From a virus, in IMG/VR virus record IMGVR_UViG_3300020420_000005, positions 1 through 35,957 of that record: 35,957 bases of DNA; one strand, given 5' to 3'. Under the pieces are notes generated by a model. That model did no database searches, was not told the DNA's origin, and was given only the letters and a program-made list of their open reading frames with translations. Shown one piece after another: positions 5,334 to 17,660 of the stretch. Position numbers and translations under genes: made by a program. The stretch's first letter is position 1. The number at the start of each line of letters is the position of its first letter.

Positions 5334-6604
5334 ATGGCTGTAACAGCTAATACAAACGAGACTTACGATGTAAGCACAATTCGTGAGGATCTCAGTGAGG
5401 CAATGGCCTCTATAACCCCAACAGAGACAATTTTGATGTCCTCTATTGGAACACGCAATGTTGACAACACTTACTTTGAGTGGAGTGAAGTTGACCTAGC
5501 CGCAACTGGCGCAAACAGACAGATAGAGGGTGACGTTGGTTTATCTAACACAGCACCAACTAATGCTGTTCGTAAAGGTGGCTACACACAAATTTCAGCG
5601 AAAGTTGTAGAGGTTTCTTCTACTAACCAAGCTGTTAATGGTGTTGCAAATGCACAGACGGTAGCAAAACAGGTTGCATATAAGCTTTCCGAACTTAAGA
5701 GAGATATGGAAGCCATGTTGCTATCGAATGTAGCTGCCAATGCTGGTGCATCTGGTACTGCTAGAGCAACCGCTGGTTTGCCTGCTTATCTTACTTCTAA
5801 CGTATCTAGAGGTGGTTCAGGTGCTAACGGTACAACTTCTGGCTCTGGTGAAAGCGGTTTTGTCAATGCTGCGGCAACTGACGGTACACTTCGCCCTATA
5901 ACAGAAGCACTTTTGAAAACTGTTATTGCAAGTTGTTGGAATGCAGGGGCTACACCTAAAATTGTTATGTGTGGTTCAGCGCAAAAGCAAAAAATCTCTA
6001 CCTTCACTGGTAACGCGACACGTTACAAAGAGGCAGAAGATAGCAAACTGAACGCCGCCATAGACGTATACATTAACTAAGCGTCTTTAAATAACTAGTG
6101 TCTTTGTATAGGAATATATAAATGCAAGCTTTTGAATTCATGGGAAGCCCAGACATGGGTAATCATGAGCCAAGCCTGAGAAATCAGGAAGGTGCAACGA
6201 CTATCCCGAAAGGGAGTAGAGGCAAGCGTCTCGAAGCGGAAGCCACCCAGAACGGGTGAAGATATAGTCTCATCTGCGGCGTATGTAGAAAGATCAAGCC
6301 GTAGCAGCCGAAAGGCGAGTTAGAGAGTAGCGTATCTAACTGAAGGGCATGTAGTGACTTTGGTGAAGTTCAGATTGTGCCTAACCGTCATATGCGTGTT
6401 AGAACCGTATCAAGTGTAGATTATACACCTGATGTTCTTGTTCTTGATCCATCATATGCAGAGGTTGCTTACTTGCAAACAGCGAAGCAAGAACCATTAG
6501 CAAAAACTGGTCTGTCAGAGCGCAGATTAATTTCATGCGAGTATGGTTTACAGGTTACTTCGCAAAAAGCACATGGTATCGTGGCAGATATTAACGCATC
6601 ATAA
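5334..6604 (+). CDS. Major capsid protein, interrupted by a group I intron (exons 5334-6073 and 6352-6604)
   Basis: The unspliced frame stops at 6078-6080 after 248 codons, but homologous coding resumes after a group I intron. Joining 5334-6073 to 6352-6604 gives 330 residues and reads through the junction as DVYI-SDFGEVQIVPNRHMR. YISDFG-x-VxIVPNR is the motif expected in DUF5309/SU10-type HK97-fold capsid proteins, and neither exon alone holds it. Downstream parts (VLVLDPSYAEVAYLQTAKQ, LAKTGLSERRLISCEYGLQV) also fit this family. The ATG has a good AGGAGACTAAAACA leader. The gene follows the scaffold gene. Splicing is required for a full-length capsid subunit; without it a truncated protein would be made. 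Confidence 0.9.
6074..6351 (+). ncRNA. Group I self-splicing intron (td-like, subgroup IA2-like), no ORF
   Basis: The 278-base intron has the hallmark core. P1 pairs exon ACATTA with TAGTGT (6070-6075 with 6096-6101), placing the U-G pair at 6073. P3 is GCTTTTG with CGGAAGC (6128-6134 with 6237-6243). P4 is TTCATG with CATGAG, P5 GCCC with GGGT, P6a CCTGA-GAAA-TCAGG. P7 is GACTAT with ATAGTC inside GCAACGACTAT and AAGATATAGTC. P7.1 is CCC-GAAA-GGG, P7.2 GAGGC with GTCTC, and P8 ACCC with GGGT. P7.1/P7.2 and the wording of the core closely match the T4 td intron as I know it. The terminal guanosine is 6351, and P10 pairs ACTA (6094-6097) with exon TAGT (6352-6355). No homing endonuclease frame is present. 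Confidence 0.92.
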
Positions 6605-9633: not shown

Positions 9634-10017
9634 TTATATCCCCACTATATCTTTATGACCGCACTTACCTTTTATTGGCTTTACCTCTTCTCTTGGCAAT
9701 TTGTAGCGGTAAATAGTGTCTCTGACCGTTCTAACAGTTAGATTTAAAGCATTAGCAATTTGCTTGGCGTTTAAATTATAGTGGATCAATATATTTATTG
9801 TTCGCACTCTTGGAGAAGCCTGTATGCTTGTTTGCCTACGATGTTTATTAGCTTCTTCTTTTGCTTTTTCTGTAAGATGATTTACCACCTTATTCATTTT
9901 TGTGTGGTGGTTTAGCTTATCGTGTGAAGCTGTAAAATCTTTCATCCTCTGACCGATTTCTGCTTCAGTAGGCATACGGCCTAATTCTTTAGCCAACACT
10001 AAACGTTGATCTATCAT
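9634..10017 (-). CDS. Helix-turn-helix DNA-binding protein
   Basis: A 127-residue basic protein. The C-terminal third contains a clear HTH (residues about 83-110, LNAKQIANALNLTVRTVRDT, then IYRYKLPREE) of the sigma-70 region 4 / helix-turn-helix type. The N-terminus is helical (LAKELGRMPTEAEIGQRMKD). It is coupled by ATGA to the upstream gene. It may regulate late or early transcription; its target is not visible. It is one of two HTH candidates for the shared operator, the other being the protein at 15795-16013. Confidence 0.75.
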   Translation of the reverse strand: MIDQRLVLAKELGRMPTEAEIGQRMKDFTASHDKLNHHTKMNKVVNHLTEKAKEEANKHRRQTSIQASPRVRTINILIHYNLNAKQIANALNLTVRTVRDTIYRYKLPREEVKPIKGKCGHKDIVGI

Positions 10018-10441: not shown

Positions 10442-10719
10442 TAGTAACTATCCTTTGACAAATCATACTCTGTATCATCAGTGTCGATAGTTGCAGAGCA
10501 AATAGCTTCGTTGATCTGGTCATCAAAATGTTTGAGAATATAAGCATCAACCCTTGGGTTTCTATCGCTTATTCTGCGCCAGCGTTTTGTCATAGGATTA
10601 GTGTAAAATAATGAAATTGATCTTACATCTTTATCTCTATCGACTTCTGCGTTGACTTCTATTTCGAAGTCACCAGCAAATCTTAGTTCAACATTTATGT
10701 CAGCTGATACGTTACTCAT
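10441..10719 (-). CDS. Small acidic beta-rich early protein
   Basis: About 92 residues from the ATG at 10719, chosen because it overlaps the upstream stop as ATGA; a start four codons earlier is possible. The N-terminal half alternates hydrophobic and charged residues (ADINVELRFAGDFEIEVNAE) like beta strands. The C-terminus is acidic (SATIDTDDTEYDLSKDSY). No family is recognised. Confidence 0.6.
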   Translation of the reverse strand: MSNVSADINVELRFAGDFEIEVNAEVDRDKDVRSISLFYTNPMTKRWRRISDRNPRVDAYILKHFDDQINEAICSATIDTDDTEYDLSKDSY

Positions 10720-10895
10720 GAGCTTAACCATTCATCATAAGTTTTTAATGGTGCGCCATTACGAGTAATATCACCACCTTTGCCATCATTTGCACAGGCA
10801 AGATAAATTTGATACTCAGCGTCATTAGACCCTCTATATCTGGTGCAAGTAACTTGTGGCTGCAATGTGCCATCTTTGTTTATTCCTGTTTGCAT
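10716..10895 (-). CDS. Small early protein of unknown function
   Basis: About 59 residues from the ATG at 10895, selected because GGTAAAAAGGA, the recurrent leader box of this phage, lies just upstream; a longer frame from 10922 would place the box inside the gene. The sequence contains QVTCTRYRGSNDAEYQIYLA and two cysteines. It is the first gene after promoter A and heads the operon 10895-9426. Function unknown. Confidence 0.6.
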   Translation of the reverse strand: MQTGINKDGTLQPQVTCTRYRGSNDAEYQIYLACANDGKGGDITRNGAPLKTYDEWLSS

Positions 10896-10924
10896 TTTGC
10901 TTTTCCTTTTTACCTTATACATTA

Positions 10925-10953
10925 TGTGTATCAGTTACGATACATAATGTCAA
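10925..10953 (-). promoter_or_regulatory. Promoter A with palindromic operator
   Basis: On the minus strand TTGACA (10948-10953) is separated by 17 bases from TACACA (10925-10930). A perfect palindrome TGTATC-N6-GATACA covers 10927-10944, within the spacer and the -10. It drives the leftward operon starting at 10895. Confidence 0.7.
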
Positions 10954-10959
10954 CACCCT

Positions 10960-11160
10960 TTAGGAATATTTATGAATATCTGCCTTTTTTAAATCTTCCA
11001 TTAACTCAGCATCCATCAACCCTATCAGTTCAGACAACTCAGATGTTAACGCTGGATTAAAACGTGTTTCGCCAGCTGCTTTATTAAGCTTAGAGATTTC
11101 TTGTCTAATCTCAGTTAATAAAATAAATTGCCATTCTAATTGCATTAAATCTTTTTCCAT
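10960..11160 (-). CDS. Small helical early protein
   Basis: A 66-residue, entirely helical, acidic protein (MEKDLMQLEWQFILLTEIRQ, then SELSELIGLMDAELMEDLKK). Its ATG overlaps the upstream stop as TAATG, so it is co-translated with the 11160-11405 gene. It ends just before promoter A. Function unknown. Confidence 0.6.
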   Translation of the reverse strand: MEKDLMQLEWQFILLTEIRQEISKLNKAAGETRFNPALTSELSELIGLMDAELMEDLKKADIHKYS

Positions 11161-11405
11161 TAAGCTAAAACCTTTCTAGCATAATCTGCCATTGCCTTGT
11201 GAACAGCCATACCAACTTTGTGTGTACGTCCGTATGTTTTGTCTGATCCGCAATGAATGACGTTCAGTGTCATAATGTTTCCACCTGTACCTTGGTGAAC
11301 CATGCCTCTGTATTCTTTGTTGTTATAAAGGCAGCGATAAAAAAAGTTGTTTGCTCCCCAACCGTCTTTACCTCTAAATTCAAATTTGGTTACTTCATTT
11401 AACAT
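11160..11405 (-). CDS. Small early protein of unknown function
   Basis: An 81-residue protein preceded by GGTAAAAAGGAAATTAAA. The sequence includes WGANNFFYRCLYNNKEYRGM and a Gly/His-containing middle (VHQGTGGNIMTLNVIHCGSD). It heads a two-gene leftward unit under promoter C. No family is recognised. Confidence 0.6.
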   Translation of the reverse strand: MLNEVTKFEFRGKDGWGANNFFYRCLYNNKEYRGMVHQGTGGNIMTLNVIHCGSDKTYGRTHKVGMAVHKAMADYARKVLA

Positions 11406-11433
11406 TTTAATTTCCTTTTTACCTTATACATTA

Positions 11434-11462
11434 TATGTAGCATAGGTGATACAGGATTGCAA
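11434..11462 (-). promoter_or_regulatory. Promoter C with operator-like spacer
   Basis: On the minus strand TTGCAA (11457-11462), 17 bases, then TACATA (11434-11439). The spacer holds TGTATC-N6-GCTACA (11436-11453), one mismatch from the palindrome of promoters A and B. It lies directly upstream of the gene at 11405. Confidence 0.65.
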
Positions 11463-11470
11463 GTGTTTTA

Positions 11471-12022
11471 TTAAATTATTTTCCATTTATTTATATAATT
11501 ATTTCTAACAACATCATCGTTGCAAAATTTCTCACGCAATCTGGTATAGATTTGTTTGAACCCATCACCATGAGGTTTTCTCATGTGAGGATATTTTTTC
11601 CTATCTAGCCTTCTCAGATTGTGTTGGACGTAATGTGCTAACTCATGGAGAACGCAAATTAAGTGACCATGATAAATGTCACCATTTTTAACAAACATAC
11701 CACCACATCTAGGGTCATCGCTATATGAACGATATTCGCTATAATAAACGTAACCATCTTTTTTATATTTATCTGTTTTGAATTTCTCAAAATGGTTTAA
11801 ATGTTCGCCAGCTTTTACATTTTTAATTTGCCAGCCATTAGTTTCTATTGTGATGGTGTTTGTGCCACCCCAACTACATCCTTTATTGGCCTGTTTAACT
11901 TTCAAAACTTTTAACGCTTTCTTTTTGCAATGAGCATTTAATTTAAAAGGCGTATCATCAAGAAAAACCAAAGCGTCTTTAACAATGTTAGCTATAAATA
12001 ATTTATACTGTTCTTTATTCAT
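11471..12022 (-). CDS. SprT-like zinc metalloprotease
   Basis: About 183 residues from the ATG at 12022, which is preceded by GGTAAAAAGGAAATAACG; a longer frame from 12070 would run through the promoter. The zincin motif HELAH gives His126, Glu127 and His130, and a third ligand is likely His151 in PHGDGFKQIY. HELAHxxQ followed by HGxxF is the SprT/zincin-like pattern. The N-terminal part is basic with a Cys/Trp-containing strand region (GCSWGGTNTITI). SprT-domain proteins cleave DNA-bound proteins (for example Spartan); this one may remove host proteins from DNA or act in takeover. The motif is seen; substrate is unknown. Confidence 0.8.
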   Translation of the reverse strand: MNKEQYKLFIANIVKDALVFLDDTPFKLNAHCKKKALKVLKVKQANKGCSWGGTNTITIETNGWQIKNVKAGEHLNHFEKFKTDKYKKDGYVYYSEYRSYSDDPRCGGMFVKNGDIYHGHLICVLHELAHYVQHNLRRLDRKKYPHMRKPHGDGFKQIYTRLREKFCNDDVVRNNYINKWKII

Positions 12023-12049
12023 CGTTATTTCCTTTTTACCTTTAACACT

Positions 12050-12078
12050 ACAGTAGCACAAGTGATACACATTGTCAA
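12050..12078 (-). promoter_or_regulatory. Promoter D with operator-like spacer
   Basis: On the minus strand TTGACA (12073-12078), 17 bases, then TACTGT (12050-12055). The spacer holds TGTATC-N6-GCTACT (12052-12069), two mismatches from the palindrome. It drives the SprT-like gene and is divergent from promoter B. Confidence 0.65.
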
Positions 12079-12111
12079 GTAGTTAATTTTAGGGGAGCAA
12101 AAAAAGGGGGG

Positions 12112-12140
12112 TTGACATCATGTATCTTATATGATACAAT
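12112..12140 (+). promoter_or_regulatory. Promoter B with palindromic operator
   Basis: TTGACA (12112-12117), 17 bases, TACAAT (12135-12140): near-consensus sigma-70. The perfect palindrome TGTATC-N6-GATACA (12121-12138) lies between the boxes. It drives the plus-strand island 12169-12914. Confidence 0.8.
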
Positions 12141-12168
12141 GTAATTATATTGGTAAAAAGGAGACAAT

Positions 12169-12426
12169 ATGGAAAAAGTAAAAAATATGGAAAATATGTG
12201 GAGATATAAACAAGGGTTTATCGAATATCATGGCAATGGTGAGTGGCTTGGATCTGATAGCGATGAAAAAGTTATTGTTAGAAAATCAAACATGACAGAA
12301 GTTAAATCTGCTTTAGATGTAATTTTTGACAAAGAGAAAAAAGTCAAAAAACCTAAAAAATCTTCCAAACCAAAAGAAGATCAAGTTACAACTTTAGCAA
12401 AAAGGTTAGACCTCTTTTTTCGGTAA
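12169..12426 (+). CDS. Small basic protein upstream of rusA
   Basis: An 85-residue protein with a good leader (GGTAAAAAGGAGACAAT before the ATG). The N-terminal half (MENMWRYKQGFIEYHGNGEW) is followed by a Lys/Pro-rich linker (KKVKKPKKSSKPKEDQ). The basic tail suggests nucleic-acid contact. It is transcribed against its flanking genes together with rusA. No family is recognised. Confidence 0.65.
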   Translation: MEKVKNMENMWRYKQGFIEYHGNGEWLGSDSDEKVIVRKSNMTEVKSALDVIFDKEKKVKKPKKSSKPKEDQVTTLAKRLDLFFR

Positions 12427-12452
12427 GAGATAATTGTAAATATTTAGAAAAC

Positions 12453-12490
12453 ACCTTATGCAGAATTATGAATACAGTTTTGCATAAGGT
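12453..12490 (+). promoter_or_regulatory. Hairpin enclosing the rusA start codon
   Basis: ACCTTATGCA (12453-12462) and TGCATAAGGT (12481-12490) form a perfect 10-bp stem with an 18-base loop. The loop contains the ATG at 12468, and no Shine-Dalgarno sequence is obvious. It may control RusA translation or stability. Confidence 0.6.
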
Positions 12491-12914
12491 TGAGATAGAA
12501 ATATCTGGACAACCAATAGGTAAGGGCAGGCCAAGATTTACCAAGACAGGTCACGCATATACCCCAACTAAAACAAGGGAATATGAAAAACGCTTGCAAG
12601 CTGCTGCCTGGGCTAAAATGCAAGAAATGAAGCTAAAACCTACAGGTAAATTTTGTCACTTAAAAGTTGTAGCGTTTATGGACATACCTAAATCATGGCC
12701 CAAGATCAAAAGGCTGGAAGCAGAATACGGAGCGATTAAACCTATTTGCAAACCTGATTTGGATAATATTGTTAAAATTGCCAAGGACGGTATAAGCGGT
12801 ATGGATGGTATAATCTTAGACGATAAACAAGTGACAAGCATCGAAGCTCAAAAAATTTATTGTCATCCTGACAAGGGGCCAGTGCTTTACTTAGCTGTTT
12901 CTTGGACAGAGTAA
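12468..12914 (+). CDS. rusA: RusA-family Holliday junction resolvase
   Basis: A 148-residue homodimeric structure-specific endonuclease that resolves four-way junctions formed during replication and recombination. The N-terminal signature QPIGKGRPRF and YTPTKTREYE are typical. The active-site set fits E. coli RusA in spacing: Asp97 and Asp99 (KPDLDN), Lys103, and Asp118 (ILDDKQV), equal to D70, D72, K76 and D91. The gene is on the plus strand inside a minus-strand recombination block and its 3' end overlaps the HNH gene by 28 bases tail to tail. The start codon lies in the loop of a 10-bp hairpin. Confidence 0.9.
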   Translation: MNTVLHKVEIEISGQPIGKGRPRFTKTGHAYTPTKTREYEKRLQAAAWAKMQEMKLKPTGKFCHLKVVAFMDIPKSWPKIKRLEAEYGAIKPICKPDLDNIVKIAKDGISGMDGIILDDKQVTSIEAQKIYCHPDKGPVLYLAVSWTE

Positions 12915-13216
12915 GACCAATCGGGTCCATAAGTCTCTTGCCACAACTTAGGTTCTTTGTGTATGGCAATCTTGGAGTTATCCCATAAACCTTGGTGGTG
13001 TCCTTCACAGAGGGGGATAGCTTCATCGTCTGGCCTTTTACGAGTGCTGTGCCTGTCATGTATTGGGTGATGGGCTGTTGTTGGTGATTGCTGCACCTCT
13101 TGAAATCGCTCACATACGCAACATTTCATTTGCCGTACATTTTTAAGAAACATAAGATTTTTTTTAGGTTTAGGTTTTTTTAATCCTAGCGGCGGTCTGT
13201 TAGTTAAATTACTCAT
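12887..13216 (-). CDS. HNH-type nuclease (Ref/DUF968-like)
   Basis: A 109-residue basic protein. A zinc-binding treble-clef HNH pattern is visible: Cys32/33-x-Cys35, then TTAHHPIHDRH (His49, His50), then LCEGHHQGLWD (Cys70, His73, His74). This resembles the phage P1 Ref / DUF968 group of small recombination nucleases. A long KPKPKKN stretch at the N-terminus may bind DNA. It is in the recombination operon, overlapping the upstream gene by 8 bases. Because an intron is present elsewhere, a homing role was considered, but the position argues for a recombination nuclease. Confidence 0.75.
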   Translation of the reverse strand: MSNLTNRPPLGLKKPKPKKNLMFLKNVRQMKCCVCERFQEVQQSPTTAHHPIHDRHSTRKRPDDEAIPLCEGHHQGLWDNSKIAIHKEPKLWQETYGPDWSYSVQETAK

Positions 13217-13682
13217 AATTATCCCAGGGCCAATGTTCGTTTAAAAATCTATTTAATTCAAGTTTGCAAGTTTTGCCGAAATTATTAATTTTTTTAGTAT
13301 TCATTTGACGCACTTTTTTTCTATGTTTTGGGTTGTTTAAATCCAATATTCTTTTTTCTTTTGGAGCAATTCTTTCGTGTATTTTTTTATCCCAACAATT
13401 ACTTTTAAGTAAATTACTATCAAATTCGTTAGCCAAACAATTAATAATTCTTGTTCTGTTTTTTAAATATAATAATTCGTCTACCCAATCAATCTCACCT
13501 CTTTGTTTTTCGTATTCTTCAACAGTAAACTCATTGCCATCTCTTGTTTCGATAATAATCTTTTTCTTAACTTGCATCTCTGGCTTTCTAGGAAATGGTC
13601 CTTCTGTTGGGCAGATAGATTTTAAAGCCAAACTTAACTTGACTGAAAATTCATCTTTTTCTATTTGTTCTTCTATATTCAT
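13209..13682 (-). CDS. Recombination-operon protein of unknown function
   Basis: A 157-residue, charged and Asn/Lys-rich protein starting MNIEEQIEKDEFSVKLSLAL with a basic C-terminal half (LDLNNPKHRKKVRQMNTKKI). It is coupled by ATGA to the PD-(D/E)XK-like gene upstream and overlaps the HNH gene downstream. I recognise no domain; DNA association is suggested only by operon and charge. Confidence 0.65.
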   Translation of the reverse strand: MNIEEQIEKDEFSVKLSLALKSICPTEGPFPRKPEMQVKKKIIIETRDGNEFTVEEYEKQRGEIDWVDELLYLKNRTRIINCLANEFDSNLLKSNCWDKKIHERIAPKEKRILDLNNPKHRKKVRQMNTKKINNFGKTCKLELNRFLNEHWPWDNYE

Positions 13683-14128
13683 ATTAAATCTCCCTTATGT
13701 ATTAATTTTACTTTTTCTTTCGGTAGGTGAGATACTATTTCTTGCCGCAAATCACCTCTTCTGTTATGTGATATTTCACTGATACGATAATCGGCTTCTA
13801 TGATAAAATCGTCAAAGTCAGCGTAGCCCACATAATCTTTCCACTGAACAACAAAGTAACATGGTAAATTCATTATGCCTTTTACAGCATGATAAGCTGT
13901 AAGTTTTTGTAACGGCATCATTATTGTTGGGTATTTAGAATATTCGTGACTGCGTTTTCGCATTTCTATCATAGCAACAGGGCGTTTATTTCTGTGCGCT
14001 ACATAATCGAAGTAACTAAACTTAGGCTCTGGCAGCATATCACACTTAAATTTTTTTGCCAAAAGCCCAGCTAGTTCTTCCTCATTTTTTTTGTCTTGTT
14101 GGTTTTCATACACTTTCGAGTACATCAT
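13679..14128 (-). CDS. PD-(D/E)XK-like nuclease
   Basis: A 149-residue protein with the arrangement of a small restriction-nuclease fold: an N-terminal helix (EEELAGLLAKKFKCDMLPEP), a strand with FSYFDYVAHRNKRPVAMIEM leading to E-M-R-K-R, then TIMMPLQKLTAYHAVK and a VVQWKDYVGYADFDDF strand. In related phage proteins the motif is D-x(n)-E-x-K with a following Lys-helix; here the E-x-K is E-x-R-K, so the assignment is tentative. The first ATG codons (14128/14125) overlap the DUF1367-like gene by about 20 bases. It could process DNA ends in recombination. Confidence 0.6.
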   Translation of the reverse strand: MMYSKVYENQQDKKNEEELAGLLAKKFKCDMLPEPKFSYFDYVAHRNKRPVAMIEMRKRSHEYSKYPTIMMPLQKLTAYHAVKGIMNLPCYFVVQWKDYVGYADFDDFIIEADYRISEISHNRRGDLRQEIVSHLPKEKVKLIHKGDLI

Positions 14129-14510
14129 AACCCACAGCCTCAGACAGTTTTTGCATAGACAATTCGAAATACTGATTAAATTCTTGCTGGCTCATATCGT
14201 CAAAAGATATGCTATCCATAATTCTCATATGTGCGCTGGCTAATGAATTCCAACGCATTTTAACATAACCACAAGCCCACTTCAGTTCGCTATGCAAATG
14301 TTTTTCACTAGGCCACCGTCCAGTAGCCTTGCAAGTATTCCTAAGAATAGACCAGTACATACTATGATGAGGGTTTGACCGTTTGCCTGTTGGTTGCAAG
14401 TTATAAGCTTGGCCCTGTTTGGCATCTTCTAGCTGCTCACCATCATATTGTGAGACAGGCAATAGTTGCCCATCTCTTATGTAAACTTGTATTTTAGAAT
14501 GGGATTTCAT
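14106..14510 (-). CDS. DUF1367-like recombination-associated protein
   Basis: About 134 residues from the ATG at 14510; a TTG start two codons earlier is possible. The core pattern (TGKRSNPHHSMYWSILRNTC, then ELKWACGYVKMRWNSLASAH, then MSQQEFNQYFELSMQKLSEA) is like the DUF1367 phage family, whose members lie near ssb and nuclease genes. NinB-type proteins have a similar layout and are an alternative. It overlaps the ssb 3' end. Function is probably recombination-related, but this is an inference from genomic context. Confidence 0.6.
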   Translation of the reverse strand: MKSHSKIQVYIRDGQLLPVSQYDGEQLEDAKQGQAYNLQPTGKRSNPHHSMYWSILRNTCKATGRWPSEKHLHSELKWACGYVKMRWNSLASAHMRIMDSISFDDMSQQEFNQYFELSMQKLSEAVGYDVLESV

Positions 14511-14880
14511 CGTCAAAATCCTGTGACGGTGTTTGATTAGACGTTTCTTCTGTTGTTTCTTCGTCTATTTTATCACCCTCTGCATACCGATTGTTTTCAG
14601 GTTTTTTACCTAACAGCTTTATTTCAGTTGCATTTATTTTTAGGTAAGTTTTTTCTTTATATTCATTCGTGCTAAACTCACCAGTAACAGCTACTTCTTT
14701 ACCTTTAACTAAACTGGGTTTTAAGTTTGCGTTCCAGTACATTATGTCGAAGTAGATTGCTTTTTCATTTTGTCCGTAACCGTCTTTAACCGCCACAGAA
14801 AAGGTTGCAAACTCCCCTTTCTTACCCTGACGAACTTCACAGTCTTTGGTAAGACGCCCGATAATTGTAATAACTTTCAT
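14494..14880 (-). CDS. ssb: Single-stranded DNA-binding protein
   Basis: A 128-residue OB-fold protein: MKVITIIGRLTKDCEVRQGK, then FATFSVAVKDGYGQNEKAIY and FDIMYWNANLKPSLVKGKEV follow the bacterial SSB pattern. The C-terminus is acidic and ends DFDDEIPF, the tip that recruits replication and repair proteins. It coats single-stranded DNA during phage replication. The start overlaps the stop of the annealing-protein candidate (ATGA), fitting an SSB/annealing pair. Confidence 0.92.
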   Translation of the reverse strand: MKVITIIGRLTKDCEVRQGKKGEFATFSVAVKDGYGQNEKAIYFDIMYWNANLKPSLVKGKEVAVTGEFSTNEYKEKTYLKINATEIKLLGKKPENNRYAEGDKIDEETTEETSNQTPSQDFDDEIPF

Positions 14881-15467
14881 AATTCTAACTCCACTTTTCT
14901 TTTATTATGTGCATCAACAACCGCTTTAAATTGCGGCTCACTTATGTCGGAATTATTTAATAAACCCTTGTAACGCTTTTCGAATTTTTTAAAATTTTCA
15001 GCGGAACAATCTTCATAAAACGTAAGGGCAGCATCTACCCTAGCGTTTGTGTCTAGGTCCATTAGTTTAGCTGGTGCAGGCTTACTTTCTTTAAATTCGT
15101 CAGCTTCTTCTTCACTGTATACGTCACCTGTCAAATCTAGTAATTTAAGAATTACCCTGTCCTTGGCACGTTTCTCTGCCATAGCAAATGGGTAATTGTT
15201 TTTATTATTATACGGTGCAACCTCACCAGTAGCCCATGCTGTTTTGTCACCCATATGACCAACAACACACATTGCTACTTCTTTAGCCTTTATGTCGTGA
15301 GCATACATAGTCGGTACATCAAAAACTATGTTATACAATGACGCCATTTTTTCACAGGCTTTATGCAAGAGAACAGGCGTTCCATGCACCTTCCATGTTG
15401 CCTCTTCTTCTGTCATGTTTATTTCTTTAAGATATTTTGACAGGTTTTTTGGTAACGATTTAGCCAT
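14877..15467 (-). CDS. Putative single-strand annealing recombinase (Rad52/Erf/Red-beta-like candidate)
   Basis: A 196-residue protein directly upstream of ssb in the same operon. The central region WATGEVAPYNNKNNYPFAMA followed by EKRAKDRVILKL resembles the short helical signature in phage annealing proteins (conserved hydrophilic strand followed by A-x-KRA-x-DR). The C-terminal 60 residues are helical and basic. There is no recognisable ATPase or nuclease motif, as expected for an ATP-independent annealer. I base the call on position beside ssb and RusA plus this pattern, so it is a candidate and not certain. Confidence 0.5.
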   Translation of the reverse strand: MAKSLPKNLSKYLKEINMTEEEATWKVHGTPVLLHKACEKMASLYNIVFDVPTMYAHDIKAKEVAMCVVGHMGDKTAWATGEVAPYNNKNNYPFAMAEKRAKDRVILKLLDLTGDVYSEEEADEFKESKPAPAKLMDLDTNARVDAALTFYEDCSAENFKKFEKRYKGLLNNSDISEPQFKAVVDAHNKRKVELEL

Positions 15468-15709
15468 TATTTATCTCCCTTTTTGACTATGCCAGCTTTA
15501 ACCAGTTCGTTACCAGTGTTGTTGACAATATCACTTAGGTCAGCAATTTGACCTATTTCTTTGTCATAAAAGTTGGCTTTTTCTATGCCTAGCTCAATAG
15601 CATCTAGAATAGCTTTAGAAGTGCTGGGCATGAGATTTTCTTCAATCGCTACTCTATAAACTTCAGTTGTTATAAATAGCTGAGAAACATAATTAATTCT
15701 TTTTTGCAT
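15467..15709 (-). CDS. First gene of the leftward early operon, unknown
   Basis: About 80 residues from the ATG at 15709, which is preceded by GAGGTAAAA; a longer frame from 15748 would overlap the promoter. The sequence MQKRINYVSQLFITTEVYRV then SKAILDAIELGIEKANFYDK is helical. Its stop overlaps the next start as TAATG. It is first under the leftward promoter, next to the regulator region. Function unknown. Confidence 0.65.
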   Translation of the reverse strand: MQKRINYVSQLFITTEVYRVAIEENLMPSTSKAILDAIELGIEKANFYDKEIGQIADLSDIVNNTGNELVKAGIVKKGDK

Positions 15710-15729
15710 TTTTACCTCTTGTTTTATTT

Positions 15730-15785
15730 TGTATCTTGCAATATACACATTAGTATCTTATATGCAACCTATAAATGTAAAAAAA
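15730..15785. promoter_or_regulatory. Divergent promoter/operator region E
   Basis: TGTATC-N6-TATACA (15730-15747) is one mismatch from the shared operator. Rightward boxes are TTGCAA (15736-15741), 17 bases, TATATG (15759-15764). Leftward boxes on the other strand are TTGCAT, 16 bases, TATATT, so both promoters overlap the operator. A second AGTATC half-site lies at 15752-15757. Confidence 0.65.
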
Positions 15786-15794
15786 GGAAAAAAA

Positions 15795-16013
15795 GTGAAC
15801 GTTGTGTCAAAAGAATATAATGAATGGCTACAGCCTGATTTATTATCGTTGGGCAAAATCCAGGATGGCCTGAAGAATAAAAGTCCAGCGGAAGTATGCA
15901 ATGCTACTGGTTTGTCTCGTCATACAGTATATCGTGTGCGAGATGGGGCAATAGACAATGTAAATTATGAAACAGTGAAAGTGTTATCTGACTATTTTCT
16001 ATCTAATAAATAA
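15795..16013 (+). CDS. Helix-turn-helix transcriptional regulator (repressor candidate)
   Basis: About 72 residues from the GTG at 15795, chosen because AAGGAAAAAAA lies in front of it; an ATG at 15762 falls within the -10 box of the rightward promoter. Residues 29-52 (SPAEVCNATGLSRHTVYRVR) form an XRE-style HTH, followed by a helical C-terminus. The gene faces away from the leftward operon and shares with it an operator-like site. That arrangement suggests a Cro/CI-like control protein for the early regulon. There is no integrase, so lysogeny control is not implied. Confidence 0.65.
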   Translation: MNVVSKEYNEWLQPDLLSLGKIQDGLKNKSPAEVCNATGLSRHTVYRVRDGAIDNVNYETVKVLSDYFLSNK

Positions 16014-16017
16014 AAAA

Positions 16018-16041
16018 TGACCCACAAATTAATGTGGGCCA
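16018..16041. terminator. Hairpin with T-rich tail on the minus strand
   Basis: CCCACA-AATTAA-TGTGGG (16021-16038) is a 6-bp stem. Read on the minus strand it is followed by a TCATTTTTTATT tail, so it looks like a terminator for leftward antisense transcription. On the plus strand no T run follows, so it would only be an mRNA structure after the regulator gene. Confidence 0.45.
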
Positions 16042-16135
16042 GTTTGAGGTAAAAAGGATAGTGCCACAGGCAAGCGACACTCTCACATAACGTCAAGATA
16101 GCAAATTGTTATTTGGACAGAAAGGTAAAAATTAA

Positions 16136-16822
16136 ATGTCACACTATATGACAGCACTGGCAATGAAACAGCAAGGAATAAGGCCAGCTACAAAAGTGGT
16201 TTTATATTGGATTGCGGATCACCATAATTCAGAAACAGGCGATTGCTTCCCCAGCATAAATAGATTGGCTATACTATGCGAGATGTCTAGGCGTTCAGTA
16301 GAGACACAAATAACCGCTTTAGAAGATTTAGGATTGCTAAAAAGAAAAGCTCAATACAGAGACACAGGCGGCAAGACAGCTAATAGTTACTTACTGGAAC
16401 TTACTGGAACTCTTGAGAACTCAGACGATACGCAAAATCTGCGCATGGGTAGCGTAAAATCTGCGCATGGGGATACGCAAAATCTGCGCATGAATAACCT
16501 TGTAAGAAGAAACCTTGGAAATAAAACCAATAATATAGATCAAAATGAAAAGAATTTTGATAAGTTTTGGACTACTTATCCTAGAAAAATAGGTAAGGCA
16601 GCAGCTAAACAATCTTTCTTTACAGCTTTACAAAAAACAAATGCTGATAAGATTATAAAAGGTGCAAGAGATTTTGGTAATTCTATGCAAAACCAAGAGA
16701 AACAATTTATACCTCATCCAAGAACATGGTTACGTCAAAAACGCTGGGAAGATAAAATAGAAATACCAGAAATGAATGGTATGAAAAAAGCCTTAGAAGA
16801 GTTAGGATTAAATTATGACTAA
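16136..16822 (+). CDS. Replication initiator (lambda O-like) with internal iterons
   Basis: A 228-residue protein. Residues 15-75 form a winged-helix HTH of the HTH_36 type (ATKVVLYWIADHHNSETGDC, then INRLAILCEMSRRSVETQIT), as in phage initiators. Residues 98-119 are encoded by three tandem iterons. The C-terminal part has FDKFWTTYPRKIGKAAAKQS and a helical tail, a pattern frequent in phage replication proteins. It would bind the iterons and load the host helicase. A GGTAAAAATTAA leader precedes the ATG. No polymerase is encoded, which fits reliance on the host replisome. It overlaps the next gene by 8 bases. Confidence 0.85.
   Translation: MSHYMTALAMKQQGIRPATKVVLYWIADHHNSETGDCFPSINRLAILCEMSRRSVETQITALEDLGLLKRKAQYRDTGGKTANSYLLELTGTLENSDDTQNLRMGSVKSAHGDTQNLRMNNLVRRNLGNKTNNIDQNEKNFDKFWTTYPRKIGKAAAKQSFFTALQKTNADKIIKGARDFGNSMQNQEKQFIPHPRTWLRQKRWEDKIEIPEMNGMKKALEELGLNYD
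16427..16492 (+). repeat. Three tandem iterons, probable origin of replication
   Basis: Three copies of about 21 bases starting at 16427, 16449 and 16472 (period 22-23). The copies are GATACGCAAAATCTGCGCAT with G, a variant with GTAGCGT, and a repeat of the first. The first and third copies have an inverted repeat CGCA-N5-TGCG, as in lambda O sites. An AT-rich stretch follows at about 16493-16570, a possible unwinding region. Confidence 0.8.
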
Positions 16823-17660
16823 TCCGTACATACTCCCAGAGGGCAACGTCAGAATTAACTTTAGCGGCGGTAGAACTTCAGGGTATATGCTCAATGCAAT
16901 ATTAGAAGCAAATGGATCATTACCAGATCGGTGCGAGGTAGTGTTTGCTAACACTGGCAGAGAAATGCCTGAAACATTAGACTTTGTTAATGAGTGCAGC
17001 GTTCATTGGAATGTGCCTATTACTTGGTTAGAATATGAAATAAGAGAAGGTAAACCAGCATTTAAAAAAGTAAGTCATAACAGCGCTTGTCGTGATGGAA
17101 AACCATTTGAAACTTTAATCCATCATAGAAGAAGGTTGCCAAGTCCGTATCAAAGATTTTGCACTAAAGAATTAAAAGTTGATACTATGAGAAGATATGC
17201 CAGAGAAAAGCAATGGTCTAAATGGACAACCGCTATTGGAATTAGGGCTGACGAAAGCCACAGGGCAATAGTAAAAGACGATAGTAAAGAAACGTGTTGG
17301 TATCCTCTTAATGATGCAAACGTATCAGAGAAAGATGTTTTAAGTTTTTGGGGAAAGCAAAAGTTTGATTTACGAGTGGTTAAAGGTTTTGGAAATTGTG
17401 ACGGATGTTTTTTAAAATCAGAGAGAAACTTAGCTACACTTTGGAAGTTATACCCAGAAAGAGCTAAGTGGTGGGCTAAACAAGAAAGCTTGGTTTTTAA
17501 AGGAAAAGAAGATAAAGCTGACTTTCAAAGATTTAAAGGTCAGGTGGATAGAACAGCAAGTTATGAAGAAATAGGTAATTTTGTAAACAGGCAAGGTGAT
17601 TGGATTTTTGATAATGAAGCAATTTTGTGTCAAGCTAATCATGGCGAATGTACTGGGTAA
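16815..17660 (+). CDS. PP-loop ATP pyrophosphatase (PAPS-reductase-like)
   Basis: A 281-residue protein of the phage PAPS-reductase-like / adenine-nucleotide alpha-hydrolase superfamily. The PP-loop is SGGRTSG (residues 17-23). FANTGRE follows, then SACRDGKPFETLI and RFCTKELKVD, WTTAIGIRADESHR, and a cysteine pair in FGNCDGCFLKS. A member of this family could adenylate or sulfurate nucleotides or proteins, or reduce sulfate donors; DndC-type DNA phosphorothioation is related in fold but no Dnd partners are present. It overlaps the initiator gene and precedes a likely replication accessory gene. The superfamily is clear; substrate is not. Confidence 0.85.
   Translation: MTNPYILPEGNVRINFSGGRTSGYMLNAILEANGSLPDRCEVVFANTGREMPETLDFVNECSVHWNVPITWLEYEIREGKPAFKKVSHNSACRDGKPFETLIHHRRRLPSPYQRFCTKELKVDTMRRYAREKQWSKWTTAIGIRADESHRAIVKDDSKETCWYPLNDANVSEKDVLSFWGKQKFDLRVVKGFGNCDGCFLKSERNLATLWKLYPERAKWWAKQESLVFKGKEDKADFQRFKGQVDRTASYEEIGNFVNRQGDWIFDNEAILCQANHGECTG

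Follow-up and report, generated by a model that had tools for sequence, protein, structure and literature searches.

In phage lambda, the autorepressor Cro acts at divergent promoters, with an O-like replication arm on one side and a recombination arm on the other. This general type of switch, an autorepressor acting on early promoters, is textbook knowledge. The window considered here, the whole 35,957-bp IMG/VR virus record IMGVR_UViG_3300020420_000005, encodes a small helix-turn-helix (HTH) protein, HTH1, and carries repeated copies of a palindromic operator, TGTATC-N6-GATACA, in its early promoters. Very probably HTH1 represses its own gene and, in the manner of Cro and Aca proteins, uses these shared dyad operators to switch off early promoters read by the host RNA polymerase. 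Like the Cro proteins of lambda, 434 and P22, HTH1 is a small HTH protein and proposed autorepressor at a divergent promoter pair, and its palindromic operators overlap promoter boxes. As in the lambda immunity region, one arm encodes the repressor together with an O-like replication protein (RepO), the other recombination functions. Unlike in lambda, operators also sit singly in scattered cargo promoters, and HTH1 shows no recognisable similarity in sequence to Cro proteins of solved structure, a PDB sequence search having returned nothing useful.

Three other described systems invite comparison. Aca repressors are small HTH proteins that bind an inverted repeat in a strong core promoter, repress themselves and control accessory early genes (PMC9410906). 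HTH1 shares the small HTH fold, the inverted repeats in strong early promoters and, as proposed here, autorepression and the control of accessory early genes, and its top, though weak, fold match is Aca11; unlike an Aca, it would serve at least five promoters and not a single acr-aca operon. The gene that follows HTH1 is a replication gene. In Cluster A mycobacteriophages such as L5 and Bxb1, one repressor acts at many sites, and the motifs diverge together with the repressor between relatives (PMC6550527). The window resembles this stoperator system in having one candidate repressor, several sites and co-diverging specificity. Cluster A sites are, however, mostly asymmetric 13-bp elements outside promoters that halt elongation, whereas the window has about six palindromes inside promoters; many one-orientation sites outside promoters are not seen, as all six top-scoring sites lie in promoters. 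TgrL of the virulent Caulobacter phage phiCbK is a small XRE regulator that is expressed early, is mainly repressing and acts chiefly on host genes (PMC10688885). HTH1 is likewise a small XRE-type regulator, but the sites found for it lie on phage DNA.

The five sites listed in an initial annotation of this DNA (A to D and the site now termed E1) are all in place, two of them perfect and the others with one or two mismatches, and its claim that their spacing is too regular for chance holds up. Compared with dinucleotide shuffles of the window (n = 150), there are two copies without mismatch against 0.007 expected, and four with at most one mismatch against 0.14 expected (shuffle maximum 1). 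Copies with at most two mismatches number five against 1.56 expected, a class that is not significant alone because the shuffles also reach five; candidate operator D is therefore not supported by the palindrome alone, and its assignment draws on promoter register and matrix score. A matrix trained on relatives only, with the window sequence left out, places exactly B, C, D, A and E1, in that order, at the top of the window. As a set these five exceed the shuffles, whose fifth-best match has a mean of 7.8 and a maximum of 9.6; taken singly, E1 (15.6) falls inside the shuffled range for a single best match (mean 11.8, maximum 17.0). This genome-wide motif search, a check that the annotation had proposed, also adds a sixth site, E2, which had been missed. 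The best match outside the early region scores 10.1, compared with 24.2–15.6 for the five sites and 13.8 for the sixth, which on its own also lies inside the shuffled single-best range, and the seventh match in the window is at background level. A de novo dyad search of the window alone does not rank the motif first, AT-rich palindromes swamping the signal; in the relative L005 and the divergent relative L019, the dyad emerges as the top repeated palindrome without prior input. A one-mismatch dyad at 6576–6591 was rejected as an operator, being in coding sequence without promoter boxes. This dyad is also kept at position 355 of L017, in the coding sequence of a structural-region gene, and its conservation is probably protein-driven.

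Read from the sequence, promoters A, C and D point leftward and B rightward. All four follow one order: a −35 box (TTGACA or TTGCAA), 3 nt, then the operator, with a 17-bp spacer and an extended −10. The single register between the boxes noted earlier stands, but the wording that placed the operator in the spacer only needs amending, since it also covers the first four bases of the extended −10. In each case the 3′ T of the N6 segment supplies the TGN extension of the −10, and the start codon lies 29–31 nt past the operator. All five recognisable early promoters, taken to be early from gene content and promoter type, appear to carry the operator.

The overlap of GATACA with the −10, together with the T that completes the TGN extension, would also fit a palindrome that is promoter architecture only, a symmetric spacer plus −10 serving no regulator. 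This is barely plausible: the left half-site TGTATC is conserved though it has no promoter role, and the promoters of relatives with a different (SRPV) recognition helix lack the dyad. The distance from the −35 to GTATC is 4 nt in the window and 1 nt in L019; since its register against the −35 varies, conservation of the dyad does not depend on promoter geometry, and promoter needs do not dictate it. It is also very unlikely that HTH1 activates these promoters instead of repressing them. Some phage regulators do both, but the sites here lie between or on the promoter boxes, and the near-consensus −35 and extended −10 elements of A to D need no activator. The overlap of the sites with −10 or −35 boxes points to repression.

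Relatives of HTH1 were fetched at 81–99% identity (L005–L012), about 62% (L013–L019) and 48–61% (L020–L047). In these, too, the dyad lies in promoter spacers, 24–47 nt upstream of a start codon. Further relatives were collected by RepO and by a conserved 196-aa neighbour, so that HTH1 itself was not selected on; in some of these the backbone is of the same kind but the HTH gene in the syntenic position encodes another recognition helix. Exact GTATC-N6-GATAC is found in 9 of 23 lineages with the SRHT helix of HTH1 (15 sites) and in 1 of 52 with another helix (one site, outside promoters), with a Fisher p of 5e-5. Explaining the SRHT label on the RepO tree takes six changes, and because at least four are forced by well-supported branches, the association between helix and operator is not a single event.

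The cleanest case reads as a natural swap of HTH1 together with its operators. L030 (SRHTYYR) and L195 (SRPVLYQ) are colinear, with RepO proteins 91% identical and surrounding DNA blocks at 68–88% identity; at two promoters, that of the HTH gene and the one next to rusA, the GTATC-type sites of L030 give way to TTTACA-type sites in L195. More broadly, TTTACA-N15-TGTAAA occurs at the HTH promoter in 22 of 31 SRP[VT]-class loci and in 0 of 72 SRHT loci, and TTTACA-N22-TTTACA is confined to the SRPV class. Promoter spacers contain GTCTC-N6-GAGAC in L209 (SKHT) and GTAAG-N6-CTTAC in L205 (ARPT). No simple residue-to-base code (R/K to A/C) was retained, since the SKPT relative L215 carries GTAAA-type sites. 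As a separate observation, the divergent promoter pair upstream of the HTH gene in L266, L276, L285, L197 and L214 is itself a near-perfect palindrome, TTTACA-N15-TGTAAA, so that the divergent promoters of the SRPV class mirror each other.

LexA sites in other phages let the phage read the state of its host, and the cyanobacterial NtcA site is GTA-N8-TAC. A host transcription factor could similarly bind the operators here, so that the phage senses host state; host CtrA sites are reported in promoters of several phage lineages (PMC9437464), and unrelated phages, too, have this dyad in promoters. This is nonetheless distinctly unlikely. The operator changes with the phage HTH1 helix between phages whose RepO proteins are 91% identical, it stays constant across HTH1 proteins of 48–99% identity that keep the SRHT helix, and the NtcA spacing differs from the GTA-N10-TAC found here. 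Operator type thus tracks the recognition helix of HTH1 within one phage lineage, which gives comparative support to the earlier proposal that HTH1 is the one repressor.

Autoregulation, also proposed earlier, would take place at E, in the interval that separates HTH1 from the leftward gene at 15467–15709, where two promoters face and overlap each other. The rightward −35 (TTGCAA, 15736–15741) sits on the leftward −10 (15745–15740), and the rightward −10 (TATATG, 15759–15764) on the leftward −35 (15767–15762). E1 covers the first junction and E2 the second. The initial annotation's placement of the E operator over a −35 is borne out for the rightward HTH1 promoter, and the leftward −10, which it had not listed, is covered as well. 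The core promoter of HTH1's own operon thereby contains inverted repeats with degenerate second half-sites. Two GTATC-type half-sites (GTATC, GTAGC, GTCTC or GTGTC) are kept at the HTH promoter of every SRHT relative that includes the upstream region, and this paired conservation supports a repressor acting on itself. The left half-site of E1 is GTATC in most relatives and GTCTC or GTGTC in others, its distal half-site is kept only in L005–L012, and the GTATC/GTAGC half-site of E2 is kept in all SRHT relatives with the region.

HTH1 matches PHROG transcriptional regulators (E 2e-5 and 4e-5). Its AlphaFold2 model (predicted local distance difference test 82.5) has five helices (N-terminal, 19–27, 31–38, 42–50 and 58–70) in a compact, all-helical HTH domain. 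The protein is best described as a predicted small XRE-type HTH protein and nothing narrower, because the Aca11 fold match has an E of only 0.1. A second candidate in the initial annotation, HTH2, is hardly credible as the operator-binding regulator. Its gene adjoins the leftward genes and has weak sigma-region-4 and HTH_23 similarity, but no homologue was found in contigs G005–G009 (L014, L015, L017, L018 and L019), all of which hold exact operators; these contigs are possibly incomplete, but two of them reach 37.8 kb and 33 kb. Because relatives without HTH2 keep the operator, HTH2 is not needed for it.

Several observations weigh against HTH1 as the common repressor. The Fisher value for the SRHT–dyad association overstates certainty, as related sequences are not independent. 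Fourteen of the 23 SRHT lineages lack the exact dyad, some being short fragments or having one-mismatch sites, and the long SRHT loci L327 and L047 have no convincing dispersed operator. The distal half-sites at E are poorly conserved beyond the closest relatives. The Pfam HTH_26 match of HTH1 (21.0 bits) is just below the cut-off of 22, and its fold matches are weak from the first (Aca11, 9lx2) onward. Finally, L174, L163 and L105/L114/L133/L139/L176/L177, which have no HTH1 relative, contain between two and five GTATC-N6-GATAC dyads, in some cases next to TTGACA; the dyad alone does not, therefore, identify its binder, and a different regulator probably uses it in these unrelated phages. Apart from these few multi-dyad phages, a pattern scan of all viral contigs gave mostly single, probably chance matches. 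The absence of the operator from L048–L084, the first distant HTH relatives, is weak evidence because these are unrelated phages, in which the other tested genes have no match.

In the mechanism that we infer from the sites, from their shared register and from the way they covary with the recognition helix, an HTH1 dimer would bind the 16-bp dyad GTATC-N6-GATAC, whose half-site centres lie 11 bp apart, about one helical turn, in the window and in relatives. Bound between −35 and −10, it would keep host sigma-70 RNA polymerase off cassettes A, C, D and B. At the two weaker E sites it would damp its own promoter, and with it HTH1 and the O-like replication gene, as well as the leftward promoter of the recombination and SSB genes. 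Soon after infection all five promoters would fire; as HTH1 accumulates, the strong A to D sites would be occupied before the weak E sites, so that autoregulation is delayed and the early wave ends.

Another reading makes the phage temperate or plasmid-like, with HTH1 binding these sites mainly as its lysogeny (immunity) repressor. The swapping of HTH and operator on similar backbones resembles heteroimmunity (compare PMC6550527), yet this is unlikely. Searches for a tyrosine integrase in 18 records, and for a serine recombinase or an S24-type repressor in 8 long ones, were negative (record completeness not established in either case), and no HTH1 relative was found among 84,980 bacterial and archaeal genomes (GTDB). 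Divergent promoters are present as in lambda, but no opposing CI/S24-type repressor was found in the 8 records. The lack of integrase, recombinase and S24 repressor in records of unestablished completeness argues for HTH1 as a Cro-only regulator of the lytic cycle.

Table 1. Candidate operators, promoters and associated genes in the window. Mismatches are relative to TGTATC-N6-GATACA; scores and ranks are those of the relatives' matrix.
Feature	Position	Strand or direction	Description
Operator A	10927–10944		0 mismatches; score 18.9, rank 4
Operator B	12121–12138		0 mismatches; score 24.2, rank 1
Operator C	11436–11453		1 mismatch; score 20.3, rank 2
Operator D	12052–12069		2 mismatches; score 20.2, rank 3
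Operator E1	15730–15747		1 mismatch; score 15.6, rank 5
Operator E2	15752–15769		AGTATCTTATATGCAACC; score 13.8, rank 6
Promoter A	−35 10953–10948; −10 10930–10925	leftward	−35 TTGACA; extended −10 TGA-TACACA (TACACA at −10 position)
Promoter C	−35 11462–11457; −10 11439–11434	leftward	−35 TTGCAA; extended −10 TGC-TACATA (TACATA at −10 position)
Promoter D	−35 12078–12073; −10 12055–12050	leftward	−35 TTGACA; extended −10 TGC-TACTGT (TACTGT at −10 position)
Promoter B	−35 12112–12117; −10 12135–12140	rightward	−35 TTGACA; extended −10 TGA-TACAAT (TACAAT at −10 position)
HTH1	15795–16013	+	72-aa Cro/XRE-type HTH protein; recognition helix region SRHTVYRVRDG
RepO	16136–16822	+	O-like replication initiation gene downstream of HTH1; phrog_270, E 4e-40
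HTH2	9634–10017	−	alternative HTH candidate; rejected as the operator binder
Promoter A cargo gene	10716–10895	−	59 aa; start 31 nt after operator; no homologue among fetched relatives
Promoter C cargo gene	11160–11405	−	81 aa; 90% identical to gene behind matching L005 promoter
Promoter D cargo gene	11471–12022	−	183 aa; weakly SprT-like (Pfam 19.6 bits, below cut-off)
Promoter B cargo gene	12169–12426	+	85 aa; 61% to L005 counterpart
RusA-like gene, promoter B	12468–12914	+	Holliday junction resolvase; PF05866, E 5e-25
First gene of leftward E transcript	15467–15709	−	80 aa
Second gene of leftward E transcript	14877–15467		conserved, 196 aa
SSB-like gene, after 196-aa gene	14494–14880		SSB-like by inspection only

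The promoter–operator cassettes A and D (window 10895–12170) are nearly identical in L005 (1960–2760), with unrelated genes behind them (59 versus 115 aa for A, 183 versus 66 aa for D), while cassettes C and B drive homologues in both. The D cargo gene is absent from the fetched relatives. Because near-identical cassettes drive different genes in L005 and several cargo genes have no relatives in the fetched set, the cassettes have the look of slots that stay fixed, under repressor control, while the early genes in them vary. The cargo open reading frames of A, C and B were assigned no functional family (PHROG, Pfam), and no known anti-CRISPR was identified among the cargo frames, no screen against an anti-CRISPR set having been made.

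A wider reading, less likely than not, concerns a large group of marine podoviruses that apparently do not integrate. In these, a tiny Cro-like protein would define, together with the operators dispersed over the genome, specificity groups that can be swapped, in effect 'immunity groups' without lysogeny. The groups would pair SRHT with GTATC, SRP[VT] with TTTAC/GTAAR and SKHT with GTCTY. If so, phages of one group that infect the same cell would shut down one another's early promoters and spare those of other groups, and conserved promoter–operator cassettes would let phages exchange accessory early genes already wired to the switch. The genes behind the operators are a place to seek early host-takeover or anti-defence genes. 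Beyond the sixth site, the comparison yields testable helix-to-operator pairings, and natural covariation appears to link an uncharacterised family of small HTH proteins in marine phages with the DNA sites that it would recognise.

By its gene content the virus is classed as a podovirus-like tailed phage, because it encodes portal and major capsid proteins of the SU10 type and its terminase is about 48% identical to counterparts in several Pelagibacter phages and Rhodoferax phage P26218. INPHARED phages, searched by DNA and with the HTH1 or HTH2 protein, gave no match. The 196-aa protein is kept in at least 34 fetched relatives without a Pfam or PHROG assignment, and its position beside the SSB-like gene suggests a role in recombination. 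Two terminator-like hairpins lie on the minus strand at 16018–16081, between HTH1 and the replication gene, a placement that would stop leftward antisense transcription. Downstream of the replication gene, positions 16815–17660 hold a phosphoadenosine phosphosulfate reductase-like auxiliary metabolic gene (phrog_424, E 5e-50).

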